From: Thiothrix litoralis
GTDB taxonomy: Bacteria > Pseudomonadota > Gammaproteobacteria > Thiotrichales > Thiotrichaceae
Assembly: GCF_017901135.1 (NCBI RefSeq)
Contig: NZ_CP072801.1
Span: 3,345,501 to 3,409,500 of the forward strand
DNA: 64,000 bases
Direction of reading: 5' to 3'
This document shows, piece by piece, positions 49,863 to 59,028 of this stretch (position 1 is the stretch's first letter; each line of letters starts with the position of its first letter). The translations under genes and the position numbers were made by a program. Below the pieces are notes generated by a model. That model was not told the origin of the DNA. It did no database searches and saw only the letters and a program-made list of their open reading frames with translations.

Positions 49863-50167
49863 TTAAGGGCATTTTCGTAGCTGATTCCAGAAAACCAGAG
49901 CTGCCGCCAATCGCCAAAGACATGAACGAGCAACCCTTGGTATGAACGTACATTTGATGCGAATTCAATACCGGTTTTCTTCTCAATCCAGGCAACCAGC
50001 GATTCAATCGGTTGGCGTACTTGTGACACAGCGGTTGACAGCCACTGTTCGTCTGCTTCCAGATAGCGTTGTCCCTTCTTCTTTTTGACCGGTGTCCGCA
50101 CAGTCAACTGTTGGGATTGTTCAATGTCGGCAGCATCCGGGCGTTGATAGGCTTTGTCACCGAAGAC
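49863..50167 (-). pseudogene. Frameshifted C-terminal remnant of a DDE transposase
   Basis: The frame opens at 50167 right after a TAA and reads VFGDKAYQRPDAADIEQSQQ, then VRTPVKKKKGQ and STAVSQVRQPIESLVAWIEKKTGIE, a DDE-type transposase C-terminus with the second Asp (GDKAY) and the Glu (ESL). Near 49913 the frame breaks: shifting by one base restores the expected ending RLAAALVFWNQLRKCP and a stop at 49863-49865. The N-terminal two thirds are absent. It is sandwiched between the HNH remnant and the tnpB gene. Family (IS4, IS5 or IS982 group) not settled. Confidence 0.75.
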
Positions 50168-51276
50168 TTATTCTCTCCAAAGGCTAACACCGCCAGTCCG
50201 GCGGCTAAAATGTTACGTGCCGCATTCACGTCACGGTCGTGGGTTGCGCCACATTCGGGGCATTCCCAAGACCGCACGTCCAGCGGCATGTTTGCTTTCA
50301 CGAACCCGCAGCCGTTACAGCGTTTGCTGGAAGGAAAGAAACGGTCGATCTCGACATACGTCCTGCCTGCCCAGTGGGCTTTGTACGCCAGTTGGCGGGT
50401 AAATTCCCCCCAGCTTGCATCAGCAATGTGCTTGGCCAGTGTCGGGTTCTTAATCATGTTCTTCACGGCGAGGTTTTCAACGCAGATCACTTGGTTCTCG
50501 TTTATTAATCTGCGGGACAGTTTGTGCAAGTTGTCCGAACGGCAATCGGAAATCTTCGCGTGAACACGGGCAACCTTGCGTTTAGCTTTCAGCCGGTTCT
50601 TGCTGCCGCGTTTCTTCTTGGCAAGACGGCGTTGATACTTCGCCAGTTTAACCGCGTGTTGGGCGGTATGGCGGGGATTGCCGGACTTAAAACCGTCAGA
50701 GGTGACGAACAAATCCTTGATGCCCACGTCAATGCCTGCCTTTTTGTCGGTGACGGGCAACAGCGTGGGTTCAAATTCACACAAGCAAGACACGAAATAG
50801 CGTCCGGCCTGATCTTTGGACACGGTGACAGTGGTCGGGGCAGCAGGAAGTGGCTGGCTCCATCGAATGTCCAGCGGCGCAGCGCACTTAGCCAGCTTCA
50901 ATTCACCGTTGCGGAATGTAAAAGCACGGTAAGTAAATTCTGCCGACTGTCGGTGCTTTTTGGATTTGAAGACAGGGTACTTTGCCCTGCCCTCAAAAAA
51001 GTTCTTGAACGCGGTTTGTTGGTTCCGCAAGCATTGTTGCAGCGGAACACTGGAAACGTCGTTCAGAAAAAGCCGTTCGGGCAGCTTCTTGATGGCGGTC
51101 AACCGCGCATTAGCACCCAGGTAACTGACTTTTTCCTGAGTCTGATCGTAAGCATCCGTGCGGTAACGCAAGATGCTGTTGTACACGTAACGCACACAAC
51201 CAAACGTCTGCGCCAGCAACGTTTCTTGTTGCAGGTCTGGGTAAAACCGGAATTGGTAGGCGCGTTTCGTTGGCAT
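50104..51276 (-). CDS. tnpB: TnpB-type RNA-guided nuclease of an IS200/IS605 (IS1341-like) element
   Basis: 390 residues. RuvC acidic residues are present: Asp in AGIDVGIKDLF, Glu in VICVENLAVKNM and Asp in HDRDVNAARNI, with the zinc ribbon CNGCG...CPEC between the last two. TnpB homologues are RNA-guided DNA nucleases that work with an omega RNA read from the 3' part of the gene and the element's right end. After NILAAGLAVLAFGEN the frame runs straight into the transposase remnant, so the last 20 residues are foreign and the normal right end is missing. No tnpA is nearby. The start ATG 51276 gives MPTKRAYQFRFYPD, normal for the family. Confidence 0.9.
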   Translation of the reverse strand: MPTKRAYQFRFYPDLQQETLLAQTFGCVRYVYNSILRYRTDAYDQTQEKVSYLGANARLTAIKKLPERLFLNDVSSVPLQQCLRNQQTAFKNFFEGRAKYPVFKSKKHRQSAEFTYRAFTFRNGELKLAKCAAPLDIRWSQPLPAAPTTVTVSKDQAGRYFVSCLCEFEPTLLPVTDKKAGIDVGIKDLFVTSDGFKSGNPRHTAQHAVKLAKYQRRLAKKKRGSKNRLKAKRKVARVHAKISDCRSDNLHKLSRRLINENQVICVENLAVKNMIKNPTLAKHIADASWGEFTRQLAYKAHWAGRTYVEIDRFFPSSKRCNGCGFVKANMPLDVRSWECPECGATHDRDVNAARNILAAGLAVLAFGENKSSVTKPINARMLPTLNNPNS

Positions 51277-51709: not shown

Positions 51710-52771
51710 ATGAGCAAGTTTCGGTGGGGAATTTTTGGTACAGGTTTTGTGGCAGGCAAATTTGCCTTGGGTCTCAAAGCACTGGGTGCTCATGAGATTG
51801 TCGCGGTTGCTTCCCGGTCTCCAGAGAAGGCCAAGGCTTTTGCAGCAGGCTTGAAGGTGGCTGCCACCTGTGGCAGTTACGCAGACATTGCCGCGCTTGC
51901 AAACGTCGATGCCATTTACATTGCCACGCCCCCCAACGTACACACGTCGCAAGCGCTGATGTGTATTGCCGCGTCAAAAGCCGTGCTGGTTGAAAAACCC
52001 TTTGCGATGAATGCAGCCGAAGCGGAAGAGATTCGCGCAGCAGCACAGGCAAACGGTGTTTTTTGCATGGAAGCGATGTGGACACGTTTTAACCCGGCTG
52101 TTCAAAAACTCAAAGCCATGGTGGATGCCGGTGAGCTGGGTGAAATACGCCTGTTAAATGGCAGCTTTGGCATTCAGGAAGTGCCATCCGAATCCAATCA
52201 TTTATTTAATCAAGCCATGGGCGGCGGCGCAGTACTGGATCGTGGTGTTTACCCCATTTCGCTAGCCGTCTATTTACTGGGTAAGCCTGATTATGTGAGT
52301 GGCGTGCTCCTGCGTGCGAACGGTGAAGTAGACGAGCAAGCCGCCATTACCTTGGGCTGGCAAGGTAAAACCACCGCGCAATTCAGTGTAAGCCTCATCG
52401 CTGACCTGCCCAATAATCTGAGTATTTCTGGCAGCAAAGCCCGCATGGAGCTGGATGCCCCGATTTATCGTCCTTCCCGCTTAAGGGTTTTTACCTCACA
52501 GCCGCTGGAACGCGCCCCAGCACAACCGCCCGGTAACAAGGATCACATCAGGGAATCGGGAACCTTGCACAAACTCCATCAGCACTTATTGCCACTGTTA
52601 ACGGCAAGAGCAGGCAAAACAGTGAATGCCCTTTATGCAGGCAATGCTTACCACTATCAGGCTGAAGAAGTTCGCCAGTGCGTACAGGGTGGCAAACGCG
52701 AAAGCGCCATTATGCCGCTGTCAGAAAGTGTCGCCATTATGGAAATCGTTGATCGTTTGCTTGCCCAATAA
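51710..52771 (+). CDS. Gfo/Idh/MocA-family oxidoreductase
   Basis: 353 residues. N-terminal Rossmann domain with GIFGTGFVAGKFA and the EKPFAMN motif whose Lys is catalytic in the family; the C-terminal alpha/beta domain includes FGIQEVPSESNHLF and GGGAVLDRGVYPISLAVYLL. Members are NAD(P)-dependent dehydrogenases of sugars, inositol, trans-dihydrodiols or similar. The substrate is not inferable. A second, different family member follows 35 bases downstream, so the two probably act on successive steps or on one modified sugar. Confidence 0.88.
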   Translation: MSKFRWGIFGTGFVAGKFALGLKALGAHEIVAVASRSPEKAKAFAAGLKVAATCGSYADIAALANVDAIYIATPPNVHTSQALMCIAASKAVLVEKPFAMNAAEAEEIRAAAQANGVFCMEAMWTRFNPAVQKLKAMVDAGELGEIRLLNGSFGIQEVPSESNHLFNQAMGGGAVLDRGVYPISLAVYLLGKPDYVSGVLLRANGEVDEQAAITLGWQGKTTAQFSVSLIADLPNNLSISGSKARMELDAPIYRPSRLRVFTSQPLERAPAQPPGNKDHIRESGTLHKLHQHLLPLLTARAGKTVNALYAGNAYHYQAEEVRQCVQGGKRESAIMPLSESVAIMEIVDRLLAQ

Positions 52772-52806
52772 AGCCCATCTTTTTTTAGTTTAAGCGGAGA
52801 GAAACC

Positions 52807-54129
52807 ATGAACATTGCCATCGTTGGTTGTGGCTATGTAGCTGACCCCTACATGGAAACACTGCATTATCACGCTAATTTAACACTGTTGGGCGTTGCGG
52901 ATTTACAGCGCGAGCGTGCCGATATTCTGGCGAATTACTACAAAACCCGCGTATATGATTCAACCGAAGCGCTAATGGCTGACCCGGCGGTACAGATTGT
53001 TGTCAACCTGACCGAACCGGAAAATCATCATCGCGTGAATATGATGGCGCTGAATGCAGGTAAGCACCTGTATTGTGAAAAACCACTGGGCATAAATCTG
53101 GATGAGGCGCGGGAAGTGATAGCGTTAGCCGAAAAAAAAGGGCTGATGGTATCGGGCGCACCTTGCAGCGTATTGAGTGAAACAGCGCAAACCCTCTGGA
53201 AAGCGGTGGAAGATGGCGCGATTGGCAAGCCGCGTATTGTGTATGCCGAGCTTGACGACAACCCCATTTACCGTATGAAACCCGAGAACTGGAAGAACGC
53301 CCGTGGCATCCGCTGGCCTTATTTAAACGAGTATCAAACAGGTTGCACGCTGGAGCACTCTGGCTATTACCTGACATGGCTTTGCTCGATTTTCGGGCCT
53401 GCGAAAAGCATCAGCAGTTTTTCTTCCTGTGTTGTTCCCGATAAAACTGATTTGCCGCTGAATCCGCCCGATACCCCTGATCTCGCCATTGCCTGTATCG
53501 TCTTTGCCTCCGGTGTTGTGGCACGCCTGACGTGCAGCATCGTAGGTACTTATGATCACCGCATCCAGATTGTCGGAGATGAGGGTTTATTAAGTGCCAA
53601 TGAGTGCTGGCATTACGCCACGCCGGTTTATCTTGAGCGATTTTCCCAAATGAGCCTGAATGCCCGCAAAGCACGCAGTGTGCGCGAAAGCCATTTACTG
53701 AAATGGGTTTTTGGCGTAGGCGGCAAGCAACAACAACTGGTTAGCCAACCCCTTTCGCAATATCCCGACCGACTTCGAGAGTTTAAACATAAAGAGCGGG
53801 GAATTTTGGGTTTACTCGTCAAAATGCTGAGCAAGCGGGAGCTGGTATTCATGGATTTTTTCAGGGGAGTTGCCGAACTTGCCGATGCCATCGAAAACAA
53901 GCGTCGTAGCCACATCCCCGCTGATCTTGTTCTGCATGTGAATGAGCTGGCGCTAGCGATGCAAAACGCGGGGGAAACCAGCGAACCCTATAAACTCACC
54001 ACCACGTTTGAACCTGTGCGCCCTTTACCACGCACGCTGGATGCCACACGGCAATACGGTGGCGATTCACGTAACTTTTTAACCGCAGCCATCGAAAAAG
54101 TGATTGAACGTATGCATAGGCATGGGTGA
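52807..54129 (+). CDS. Gfo/Idh/MocA-family oxidoreductase, larger paralogue
   Basis: 440 residues, about 90 longer than its neighbour. Rossmann motif AIVGCGYVADPYMET, NLTEPENHHRVNMMALNAGK and CEKPLGIN with the family Lys. GCTLEHSGYYLTWLCSIFGP corresponds to the catalytic His/Tyr region. It shares the fold but little sequence with the upstream gene, so this is not a recent duplication. AGCGGAGAGA precedes the ATG. Likely cytoplasmic, NAD(P)-dependent; sugar or cell-surface polysaccharide metabolism is a guess from the family. Confidence 0.85.
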   Translation: MNIAIVGCGYVADPYMETLHYHANLTLLGVADLQRERADILANYYKTRVYDSTEALMADPAVQIVVNLTEPENHHRVNMMALNAGKHLYCEKPLGINLDEAREVIALAEKKGLMVSGAPCSVLSETAQTLWKAVEDGAIGKPRIVYAELDDNPIYRMKPENWKNARGIRWPYLNEYQTGCTLEHSGYYLTWLCSIFGPAKSISSFSSCVVPDKTDLPLNPPDTPDLAIACIVFASGVVARLTCSIVGTYDHRIQIVGDEGLLSANECWHYATPVYLERFSQMSLNARKARSVRESHLLKWVFGVGGKQQQLVSQPLSQYPDRLREFKHKERGILGLLVKMLSKRELVFMDFFRGVAELADAIENKRRSHIPADLVLHVNELALAMQNAGETSEPYKLTTTFEPVRPLPRTLDATRQYGGDSRNFLTAAIEKVIERMHRHG

Positions 54130-54244: not shown

Positions 54245-55252
54245 ATGCGGAAGTTTATTTGGCCTTGTGGTGTCGCCCTGTTTTGCTTTGCAACAAGCGC
54301 AGCAGCCGTTCCCCCGCCACCGCCACCTACCAGCAACGCGCCAGCCGTAAACGCCGAACCCGGTAATGTGCTGAAGGCTGCCCAACAGGCGGGCGTATTG
54401 CGTGTTGCCACTGAACCGGATTTCCCGCCACTCTATTGGGTTGATGAAGCGGGCAAGGAGCGAGGCTTTGAATACGAGCTGGCGCAGCGCATTGCCAAAG
54501 CCCTCGGCATCCCCAACGTTGAGCTGGTGGAAGACGATTACGACAAGCTGCCCACCTTGGCAAAAGAGGGCAAAGCTGACATTTTCATGGCGGGCTACGT
54601 CCCCGACGACTCGATTGAAGGGATCTCATGGTCAAACAGTTATCTGGATTTCGGTCTGTGCCTGATTGTCCCCAAAGGTAGCCCGGTCAAAACCATCAAA
54701 CAGCTCAAGGGCAAAAACATTGGCGCTTACGATGACCCTGCCGTTACCCGCTGGATCGACGAAAACATTGCCAACCGTAAAGCGGTAAAAACCTATCTGG
54801 GGCCGGGCTGGTTGTTCCACGTGGATAACCGTGAGGTGGATGCTGCCATTTACGACTACCCGCTAGCTTTGGAAGAAATCAAAGCCTTCAAACGCCTGCA
54901 AATTGTTTCCTTCAACCTCAATGAAAGCAACTACGCGGTAGGTTTCAAGTCAGGCAACCCAGAATTGCAGCAAGCCCTCAACAGCGCCATCGAGAGCATC
55001 GAAGCCAGCGATGACTATGTTGGCCTGATCAAACGCTACTTGCCCTTCAAGATTTCTCAGGAAGTCCCCGAAGGCAGCGACACTTACACGATCCAGCGCG
55101 GTGATACCCTAGGAAAAGTTGCCACGGAAAAATTGGGCACGACCGCAAGCTGGAAAACGATCTGGGAACTCAACAAATACCGCATCCCCAACCCCAACCT
55201 GCTGGAAGCGGGTGATATCCTGATCATGCCAAAATCCAAGGAGACGTTATGA
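54245..55252 (+). CDS. Periplasmic solute-binding protein (SBP_bac_3) with a C-terminal LysM domain
   Basis: 335 residues. Signal peptide (about 1-22), a Pro-rich linker PPPPPPTSNAPA, then a family-3 type II binding-protein fold (VLRVATEPDFPPLYW, ERGFEYELAQRIAKALG, ADIFMAGYVPDDS, DFGLCLIVPKGSP, NYAVGFKSGNPELQQALN) to about residue 275. The end is a LysM domain: YTIQRGDTLGKVATEKLG ... NPNLLEAGDILIMPK. SBP_bac_3 modules usually serve ABC importers or sensors, and LysM binds peptidoglycan; the join is unusual. No ABC transporter gene is adjacent. The next gene overlaps its stop (ATGA), so the two belong together. Confidence 0.85.
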   Translation: MRKFIWPCGVALFCFATSAAAVPPPPPPTSNAPAVNAEPGNVLKAAQQAGVLRVATEPDFPPLYWVDEAGKERGFEYELAQRIAKALGIPNVELVEDDYDKLPTLAKEGKADIFMAGYVPDDSIEGISWSNSYLDFGLCLIVPKGSPVKTIKQLKGKNIGAYDDPAVTRWIDENIANRKAVKTYLGPGWLFHVDNREVDAAIYDYPLALEEIKAFKRLQIVSFNLNESNYAVGFKSGNPELQQALNSAIESIEASDDYVGLIKRYLPFKISQEVPEGSDTYTIQRGDTLGKVATEKLGTTASWKTIWELNKYRIPNPNLLEAGDILIMPKSKETL

Positions 55253-55734
55253 GACTTACCCGTTTCTGGATTATTCAAATCTTCATTATTGCATCACTGT
55301 TTGCCATCCTGATCGGCAGCTACCTGTTCTCGTTTGGCTGGTTTGCCACCAAGCCCACTCTAGTGAAACAGGCCGCACCCAGCACTGCGCCAGTCAGCGT
55401 CACACAAACCGAACAAGCAACACTAGCACCGCCCGCAACATGCGGCACAGCGGGGAAAATCCCTTCACTAAGCGACATTGCGGACAGTTTGGGCAGTCAT
55501 GATGCGCAACGGCAAACAAGCTGTTTCAGCTTCTTACAAGCCGAAAGCATGGCAGGCGACAAGGGTGCAGTGTTGTGGCTAGGCCGGGCATACCATAATG
55601 GTTGGGGTGTAGCGAAAAATCTGGAAGAAGCGACCAACCATTACCAGCAGGCCGCGACGGCTGATGACGCCGCTACCCGTGATTCTGCCAAGCAATGGTT
55701 GCAACAGTTGCAGCAAGAACAGCCGCAACTGTGA
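55249..55734 (+). CDS. Membrane-anchored Sel1-repeat protein
   Basis: 161 residues. One N-terminal transmembrane helix (FWIIQIFIIASLFAILIGSY), a Ser/Thr/Pro-rich spacer, then a Cys-containing segment and one clear Sel1-like repeat (GDKGAVLWLGRAYHNGWGVA followed by LEEATNHYQQAA). Sel1 repeats mediate protein contacts, often in the envelope. ATGA overlap with the SBP-LysM gene implies a shared complex or pathway. No enzymatic motif was seen. Confidence 0.8.
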   Translation: MRLTRFWIIQIFIIASLFAILIGSYLFSFGWFATKPTLVKQAAPSTAPVSVTQTEQATLAPPATCGTAGKIPSLSDIADSLGSHDAQRQTSCFSFLQAESMAGDKGAVLWLGRAYHNGWGVAKNLEEATNHYQQAATADDAATRDSAKQWLQQLQQEQPQL

Positions 55735-57960: not shown

Positions 57961-58698
57961 ATGAATATGAAGTATACATTGTGTGCCGCAATGGCATTGT
58001 TGGCAACCCTTCCCGCCCATGCTGACGACAGCGCCACCGCAGGCTGGAATGTGGGTTTGGCTGCGACCGTTAGCCAATCGCCCTTTGTTGATGGTGATGC
58101 GGCACTGAGTGGCAAACCTGTCATGCTCGGCAACAATGAGTTTGATATTGCAGGCCCTACACTATCCTTAAGCGCCACCCCGCAACGCGAGTTTTATATC
58201 GGCGCGGGTCTGGATGACTGGGATTATGAGCGCGGCGACAGCCCCACGCTGCAAGACATGAAATCACTGGATCGCGCCATCAACCTGCGGGTCGGTGGTG
58301 CATGGAAACTCGCCAGCGGCAGCGCTACCGTTGATCTAGCACAAGATGTAGCGGGCGCACACAAAGGTGCTCAGGTCAAAGCACGTTACACCCAACGGCT
58401 TGCCGGGTCATACGCCGCCGTGCGCCCGTATATGGAAGCGCAATGGCTTTCCGCCGACATGACCGACTATTACGTGGGCGTGGATGCGGATGAGGTCAAA
58501 GCAGGCCGCCCAGCCTATCAAGCCGATGCCGCACTGGCACTGAAAGCAGGCGTGCTGCTGGAACAGCCGATCAGTAAACGCCTGACCTTGGTGGGTGAGG
58601 CAAATGTTACCGGCTACGACAGCGCCATCAGTGACAGCCCGATCATCGACAACAGCACCATTTGGGGTGGCGCGATGGGTGTTGCCTACCGCTGGTAA
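57961..58698 (+). CDS. MipA/OmpV-family outer-membrane protein
   Basis: 245 residues. Signal peptide ending LPAHA at about residue 21 (MNMKYTLCAAMALLATLPAHA), then a beta-rich barrel with alternating aromatic residues, the family motif QWLSADMTDYYVGV...AGRPAYQADA, and a C-terminal aromatic end VAYRW typical of outer-membrane insertion. MipA scaffolds peptidoglycan enzymes in E. coli and OmpV-type porins affect antibiotic passage; which applies here is open. Confidence 0.85.
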   Translation: MNMKYTLCAAMALLATLPAHADDSATAGWNVGLAATVSQSPFVDGDAALSGKPVMLGNNEFDIAGPTLSLSATPQREFYIGAGLDDWDYERGDSPTLQDMKSLDRAINLRVGGAWKLASGSATVDLAQDVAGAHKGAQVKARYTQRLAGSYAAVRPYMEAQWLSADMTDYYVGVDADEVKAGRPAYQADAALALKAGVLLEQPISKRLTLVGEANVTGYDSAISDSPIIDNSTIWGGAMGVAYRW

Positions 58699-58704
58699 AA
58701 CGCC

Positions 58705-58965
58705 TTATTTTCCCCCGCTTAATTGCTGAACTTCGGCGATGGCGGGGGCAGAACCTTCAATATCGAACTGAGGTGGGAACGATTCACGTACCGCAAGTAC
58801 CTTCAACTGACCAGCTTTTTCAAGCGCACGAATCTTCATTTCTACCGGATCGGGTTTGGCGGCAGTGCCGTGTATCGTGGCGCGGCTGGTGGGGCTGTTG
58901 TCCGTTGGCGGAGTGCAAGCACTGAGGGTGGCGAGACAAAATGCCAGTGTGCTGAGGGTTTTCAT
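58705..58965 (-). CDS. Small lipoprotein of unknown function
   Basis: 86 residues. The lipoprotein signal MKTLSTLAFCLATLSAC ends in a good lipobox (LSAC); the mature part is charged and Pro-rich with no known domain. ATG 58965 has AAGGA just upstream; the same frame continues to 59025 without a better site. Lies between the malic-enzyme gene (same strand, 63 bases) and the MipA gene (converging). Confidence 0.65.
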   Translation of the reverse strand: MKTLSTLAFCLATLSACTPPTDNSPTSRATIHGTAAKPDPVEMKIRALEKAGQLKVLAVRESFPPQFDIEGSAPAIAEVQQLSGGK

Positions 58966-59028
58966 GATGCGTCCTTGGGTTGAGTGGAGACACAAAAGCT
59001 TGCGTCTCCACGCCCCCATTGTCAAATC

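Follow-up and report, generated by a model that had tools for sequence, protein, structure and literature searches.

A pair of overlapping genes of Thiothrix litoralis forms one unit, and we hold, with slightly more confidence than doubt, that its products constitute a peptidoglycan-anchored, transporter-free envelope receptor working through a Sel1-like membrane partner. The pair lies in a stretch of 64,000 nucleotides (contig NZ_CP072801.1, positions 3,345,501 to 3,409,500), which was analysed as a whole and is referred to here as the window. The basis of this reading is observed: the domains of the proteins, the gene unit, the missing transporter, a missing arginine in the binding domain and the gene neighbours of the family. 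The evidence is strongest for the missing transporter and the missing arginine, each with a control (a positive one for the transporter), and for the co-inheritance of the overlapping pair; it is weakest for the Sel1 assignment, the predicted interaction between the partners and the putative ligand.

The upstream gene (gene 1; 54245-55252, plus strand) encodes a protein of 335 residues in which a signal peptide and a proline-rich linker precede the SBP_bac_3 domain and a C-terminal LysM domain, and the downstream gene (gene 2; 55249-55734, plus strand) encodes a protein of 161 residues, whose one hydrophobic helix is joined by a variable linker to a helical domain. The features of the pair, in window coordinates, are as follows:

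54245..54307, plus strand: signal peptide, gene 1 residues 1-21, ending in SAAA (hydrophobic stretch at residues 4-22; the cleavage site and the absence of a lipobox were judged by eye)
54308..54367, plus strand: proline-rich linker, gene 1 residues 22-41 (from the sequence, and of low model confidence)
54368..55048, plus strand: two-lobed SBP_bac_3 binding domain, gene 1 residues 42-268 (profile, model, and Foldseek and VIA-align matches to amino-acid-binding proteins)
54611..54613, plus strand: codon of Ser123, aligned with the arginine of ordinary binding proteins
55085..55231, plus strand: LysM domain, gene 1 residues 281-329 (profile and model)
55249..55252, plus strand: ATGA overlap of 4 nt, joining the gene 1 stop and the gene 2 start
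55261..55338, plus strand: single membrane helix, gene 2 residues 5-30 (the one hydrophobic stretch by hydropathy, and a helix in the model)
55348..55440, plus strand: variable linker, gene 2 residues 34-64 (alignment, low model confidence and dN/dS)
55441..55728, plus strand: divergent, putatively Sel1-like helical domain, gene 2 residues 65-160 (profile match below cut-off, columns invariant in 9/9 orthologues, model and Foldseek)

That a periplasmic binding fold is followed by a C-terminal LysM domain, as the original prediction held, is confirmed by profile searches: SBP_bac_3 (PF00497, residues 52-266) scores 73 bits against a Pfam cut-off of 26.4, and LysM (PF01476) scores 32.3 bits against 20.9. 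When eight SBP-LysM relatives were scanned for LysM, seven, including L059, exceeded the cut-off and L060 fell just under it at 20.7 bits. The AlphaFold2 model of the gene 1 protein, built on an alignment of 38 sequences, has a mean pLDDT of 87.6; residues 1-38 are below 50, and the confident part spans roughly residues 40-330. After the two-lobed binding fold comes a small domain containing a strand (279-282), two helices (289-297 and 300-310) and a second strand (325-328), and the model's closest solved structures according to Foldseek and VIA-align are amino-acid-binding proteins (VIA-align Z 24.2 for 5eyf_A). The closest named match is Thiothrix lacustris, at 85-86% identity. In many SBP-LysM relatives an N-terminal hydrophobic stretch is present within the receptor itself, which hydropathy reads equally as an anchor or a signal peptide; in Thiothrix, the gene 1 product looks secreted, with the membrane anchor on the gene 2 product.

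Several lines of evidence tie the two genes together. An ATGA or GTGA overlap is present in all eight contiguous Thiothrix pairs, and in the window a GGAG motif stands five bases 5' of the gene 2 ATG. Nine of the 16 genomes of the genus (G000-G015) have an orthologue of gene 1, the identical nine have one of gene 2 and the other seven have neither; since related species of one genus are not independent, no p-value is given for this co-occurrence. One of the genomes without the pair (G009) has a distant, arginine-bearing SBP-LysM protein, and other Sel1 proteins occur throughout the genus. Across 63 genomes of the family, searched with profile A2, the main SBP-LysM type is confined to the same nine genomes, among which the flanking genes come in several arrangements and the pair persists. 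In the comparison with T. lacustris, gene 1 has a dN/dS of 0.089 and gene 2 one of 0.256. In T. lacustris itself the two genes are found at the ends of two contigs (L050 and L166) that carry the same short string, and the stretch 5' of gene 2 resembles a transposase sequence by eye, so that a mobile element probably splits the pair there. In another genome, one of the nine (G006, L058:8223-9243), gene 1 appears as two overlapping frames beside an intact gene 2, reflecting either a frameshift or a sequencing error. A promoter scan returned none, and terminators were at chance level.

The downstream gene had been predicted to encode a single-helix Sel1 protein. The overlap and the one hydrophobic helix stand, but the Sel1 assignment is less secure, as the single match to PF08238 scores 24.1 bits, below the Pfam cut-off of 30.7; of four orthologues scanned, one exceeds the cut-off (31.3 bits) and three fall below it. 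The model of the gene 2 protein comprises a helix at residues 5-30, a segment with pLDDT below 50 at 33-61 and, between 74 and 160, five helices of high pLDDT. Its top Foldseek match is a Sel1 protein (6orc_A), weak at E 0.036, and the predicted fold thus weakly suggests that the helical domain is Sel1-like. The linker has the highest dN/dS of the three parts of gene 2 (0.495 against T. lacustris). Cys65 and Cys92 are invariant in the alignment of all nine orthologues, a pattern that suits a periplasmic disulphide.

The combination of the two gene 1 domains, described beforehand as unusual, is indeed rare but not unique, since it belongs to a scattered family. A search of 369 genomes of the class (profile A2, E 1e-22, up to five candidates scored per genome) gave matches in 41, and only the window's own gene spanned LysM; in 398 genomes of the phylum (profile A4, 1e-40, likewise up to five candidates per genome), three matched, of which the window's own and one other spanned both domains and the third ended at model position 294 of 355. 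One scan of genome contigs with two short peptide patterns yielded 35 loci: three from Thiothrix, 31 further SBP-LysM loci from several phyla, and L148, excluded from the 31 because its match ends before LysM. Many of the 31 are on contigs of metagenome-assembled genomes (MAGs), as are most relatives beyond Thiothrix and Burkholderiales, and wrong binning is possible for these; L122 and L145 belong to a single MAG, and on the short contigs L119, L122, L126 and L129 absent neighbours mean little. In the tree, 36 aligned proteins of the main type form one clade with support 100/99, a number that overstates their independence, as 19 of them are of the Burkholderiales type and many of these are nearly identical. 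The underlying A4 alignment, which also served for the residue counts, leaves out L131, L135, L136 and L148 and uses the copies from the genus genomes in place of L114-L116. Two arginine-bearing Thiothrix proteins, L059 and L060, join the main clade at weak support (53/31), and the fusion of SBP and LysM may therefore have arisen twice. With profile A2, the arginine-bearing type is found in three of the 63 family genomes, namely G004 (which has both types), G009 and G411 (a fragment). Counted after L059 and L060, the third copy is L164, which belongs to another genus of the family and sits at the end of a contig. Both L059 (7832-12667) and L060 (2735-9583) have a C-terminal extension, lie directly 3' of an FGE-sulfatase-like gene and have PP2C and kinase genes nearby; at L059, a nine-repeat Sel1 protein and a MORN protein are encoded after the receptor.

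Binding proteins of this fold usually accompany a transporter, and the original prediction had pointed to the lack of an ABC permease. For the PAAT type this is borne out: neither a permease nor an ATPase of that type was found near gene 1 in the window. Amino-acid permease genes lie near none of 37 SBP-LysM loci and near none of the nine Thiothrix loci, as opposed to 11 of 12 ordinary family-3 SBP loci; for ATPase genes, the corresponding numbers are one of 37 (L148, without a LysM match), none of nine and 11 of 12. The 37 loci are the 35 from the genome scan, L148 included, plus L059 and L060; three of them, L114-L116, are also counted among the nine Thiothrix loci. Two ordinary loci supplied the permease and ATPase queries, all of the PAAT type, and with several contigs being short a transporter of another kind could have escaped the search. 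The sensor reading therefore survives the search for ABC transporter genes beside relatives. An ordinary transporter-associated binding protein was rejected as the identity of the gene 1 product, on the grounds of the missing permease beside the loci and the missing arginine at position 123.

In family-3 binding proteins, an arginine and a threonine hold the alpha-carboxylate of the ligand, and an aspartate holds its alpha-amine. The main clade was compared at these positions (window protein numbering) with 54 ordinary SBPs, which were chosen by likeness to the family profile and remained from 65 ORF hits after removal of duplicates, five LysM-bearing proteins and those failing on length or coverage. 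Residue 123 is arginine in 54/54 ordinary SBPs and in 0/36 proteins of the main clade, which have serine (16, including the window protein), threonine (14), aspartate (5) or glutamate (1) instead; the arginine of AncQR, solved with arginine bound, aligns to this position. Residue 165 is threonine or serine in 44 of the ordinary SBPs and in none of the clade, and residue 120 is threonine in 48 of them and in a single clade member, proline being commonest there (26). Asp204, in contrast, is kept (36/36 in the clade, 47/54 in the ordinary SBPs). Asp164, Trp189, Tyr205 and Glu211 are present in 36/36 clade members and in 0-1 of the 54 ordinary SBPs, the exact column of Trp189 depending on the alignment, and Tyr203 is likewise invariant in the clade. 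A supposedly clade-specific tyrosine at position 99 was dropped, because pairwise alignment shifts it by one residue. Since the clade has lost the arginine and most of the nearby threonines, retains the aspartate and has gained fixed acidic and aromatic residues, a free alpha-amino acid is probably not the ligand; a reasonable guess would be an amine or another cation that has no carboxylate close by.

These residues also bear on two competing interpretations. The first is that gene 1 encodes a wall-tethered but otherwise ordinary amino-acid-binding protein, which passes its ligand on to a permease whose gene lies elsewhere. Its fold and nearest solved relatives are those of amino-acid-binding proteins, and the window's genome does have a canonical locus with permeases (L149), yet the arginine is missing, no PAAT-type permease lies beside the relatives and the gene is co-inherited with a Sel1-like membrane protein instead, which makes this explanation very improbable. 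The second starts from the point that the loss of Arg123 could mean that ligand binding itself was lost, in which case the SBP fold would be a spacer or docking module tying the inner-membrane Sel1-like protein to the wall. The main clade has indeed lost the arginine in 36/36 cases, Thr/Ser165 in 36/36 and Thr120 in 35/36, and the partner genes of the family encode membrane and coiled-coil proteins. However, six residues (Asp204, Asp164, Trp189, Tyr203, Tyr205 and Glu211) are invariant in all 36, which is unexpected in an unused cleft, although some of them may face away from it, and the dN/dS of the SBP domain against T. lacustris is as low as 0.075; we thus consider a ligand-free scaffold unlikely.

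A further interpretation comes from Pseudomonas aeruginosa, where, according to Wang et al. 2023 (PMC10746161), the periplasmic Sel1-like protein PA3978 (IltA), with three repeats, inhibits the lytic transglycosylase MltF, whose N-terminal domain is reportedly switched by muropeptides. This system resembles the pair in combining an SBP-like domain in a peptidoglycan-acting protein with a Sel1-like envelope partner, and the N-terminal domain of MltF has the same fold as gene 1 (4p11, VIA-align Z 21.1). By analogy, the binding domain of gene 1 would sense muropeptides and the Sel1-like protein would control a lytic transglycosylase. However, the same text places the binding of IltA, in a two-hybrid test, on the catalytic domain of MltF, whereas the gene 1 protein has no transglycosylase domain, and none of the 16 genus genomes reaches the cut-off of the MltF model; such a regulator of wall enzymes is therefore quite unlikely, although the flanks, profile-searched in part, may yet contain a hydrolase gene. 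That gene 1 could be MltF itself was rejected, as an SLT or other catalytic domain is absent. Between the two functions originally offered for the pair, the wall-anchored ligand sensor is the better option, given that LysM passes its profile and that amino-acid ABC genes are absent beside relatives and present in controls, while the chaperone-like scaffold found no direct support.

The receptor reading gains context from the gene neighbourhoods of the family. At 20 of the 31 non-Thiothrix loci (Burkholderiales and uncultured betaproteobacteria), the gene directly upstream encodes a membrane and coiled-coil protein, of about 250-330 residues in all 20 (e.g., L125:7029-7787). One such partner, scanned against profiles, matched no named family above cut-off, and hhalign comparisons of the Burkholderiales partner with the other membrane partners and with PspA revealed no homology (best probability 2.6). 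PspA is encoded at five of the 31 loci (L118, L119, L120, L146 and L147), four of which have genes for an AAA ATPase and a coiled-coil membrane protein as well, and two have a TerB-type gene; at L146 (7785-12817, from Chitinimonas taiwanensis) and L147 (7863-12929), SBP-LysM, coiled-coil membrane protein, PspA, AAA ATPase and TerB-like protein are encoded in a run of five genes on one strand. The AAA proteins of L118, L120, L146 and L147 contain Walker A once, in the C-terminal half. At L118 (12210-14090), a protein with response-regulator, PAS and histidine-kinase parts is encoded directly 3' of the AAA gene. Six loci are Bacteroidota contigs, three with an Ig-like protein encoded upstream. 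One of the 31 loci, L121 (5151-12407, from a Saprospiraceae MAG), has a run of genes for a PP2C phosphatase, a zinc-ribbon kinase, SBP-LysM, a flavin amine oxidase-type protein and a second kinase, both kinases being Ser/Thr kinases, and it is the only one with PP2C and two kinases; its SBP-LysM protein begins, by eye, with a zinc-ribbon-like segment before the hydrophobic helix. In the window, two adjacent genes for Gfo/Idh/MocA-type oxidoreductases (51710-54129) lie upstream of the pair, and further genes around it encode an OrfB/TnpB-type transposon protein (50104-51276, minus strand, by eye), a MipA-family outer-membrane protein (57961-58698, 100.1 bits) and a short lipoprotein-like ORF (58705-59025, minus strand), which has no NCBIfam match but whose central part, by eye, looks like the beginning of an SBP domain.

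The flavin amine oxidase-type gene (PF01593) adjoins the receptor gene at L121 and is one gene away at L117, and these two neighbours would fit an amine ligand. Their products have a Tat-like, lipoprotein-like leader by eye; the L121 oxidase matches monoamine oxidases in the PDB, and no named NCBIfam family matches either protein above its cut-off. Flavin-oxidase matches downstream of SBP-LysM at eight of the 20 Burkholderiales-type loci are not counted in favour of an amine, because by eye they belong to a separate lipid-type cluster of that group. Taken across phyla, these neighbourhoods allow the tentative proposal, which we regard as possible rather than probable, that SBP_bac_3-LysM receptors have abandoned amino-acid transport and now bind, in a rebuilt pocket, a cationic amine that could be a polyamine, passing this signal on to partners that act in membrane remodelling or phospho-signalling (PspA-AAA-TerB, coiled-coil membrane proteins, kinases and, in Thiothrix, the Sel1-like protein).

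Known systems resemble this family in part. With family-3 ABC binding proteins (PF00497; AncQR 4zv1, GlnBP, LAO), gene 1 shares fold and sequence (E 4.8e-23 to AncQR), Asp204 corresponding to their conserved aspartate; it differs in the added LysM domain, in the lack of a PAAT permease and ATPase beside it and in the change of the arginine to Ser/Thr/Asp/Glu, and the clade has its own fixed Asp164, Trp189, Tyr205 and Glu211. BvgS-type sensor kinases use SBP (Venus flytrap) domains as sensors and share the fold, 4q0c being a sequence match, but the gene 1 chain has LysM in place of a kinase. A PspA-AAA operon with a solute- and peptidoglycan-binding protein (PBPB and OmpA) is described by Ravi et al. 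2024 (PMC11237479), who also link PspA systems to polyamine metabolism genes. L118, L120, L146 and L147 likewise pair a solute- and peptidoglycan-binding protein with PspA, a coiled-coil membrane protein and an AAA ATPase, but their receptors are made of SBP_bac_3 and LysM instead of PBPB and OmpA, and no ABC transporter was found nearby; LysM, SBP and TerB are absent from the main text of that article. PspA gave no match in the window's genome and is found at just five of the 31 loci, so the setting of these relatives may not carry over to Thiothrix. The SBP-LysM family thus has the idea in common with the PspA-AAA and MltF/IltA systems and the exact parts with neither. In freely readable papers (main texts, mostly judged by title), no description of an SBP_bac_3-LysM receptor family was found, nor anything relevant on the LAO R77A variant.

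According to the receptor reading, the gene 1 protein would be exported, anchored to peptidoglycan by LysM and able to bind a small solute between its lobes, and it would feed no ABC transporter. The gene 2 protein would sit in the inner membrane by its one helix, with the Sel1-like protein-binding domain probably in the periplasm, where it may dock on the binding protein or read its state. The likely role would be to report on the state of the envelope or of the solute, since receptor relatives are encoded beside membrane-maintenance or signalling genes. Binding proteins of the SBP_bac_3 fold are normally read as parts of transporters; a wall-tethered family with no neighbouring transporter, devoid of the arginine clamp and, in some branches, encoded near membrane-stress genes would constitute another route by which bacteria sense solutes or the state of their envelope, and, if this is true, some PspA/AAA membrane systems would gain a possible outside sensor.
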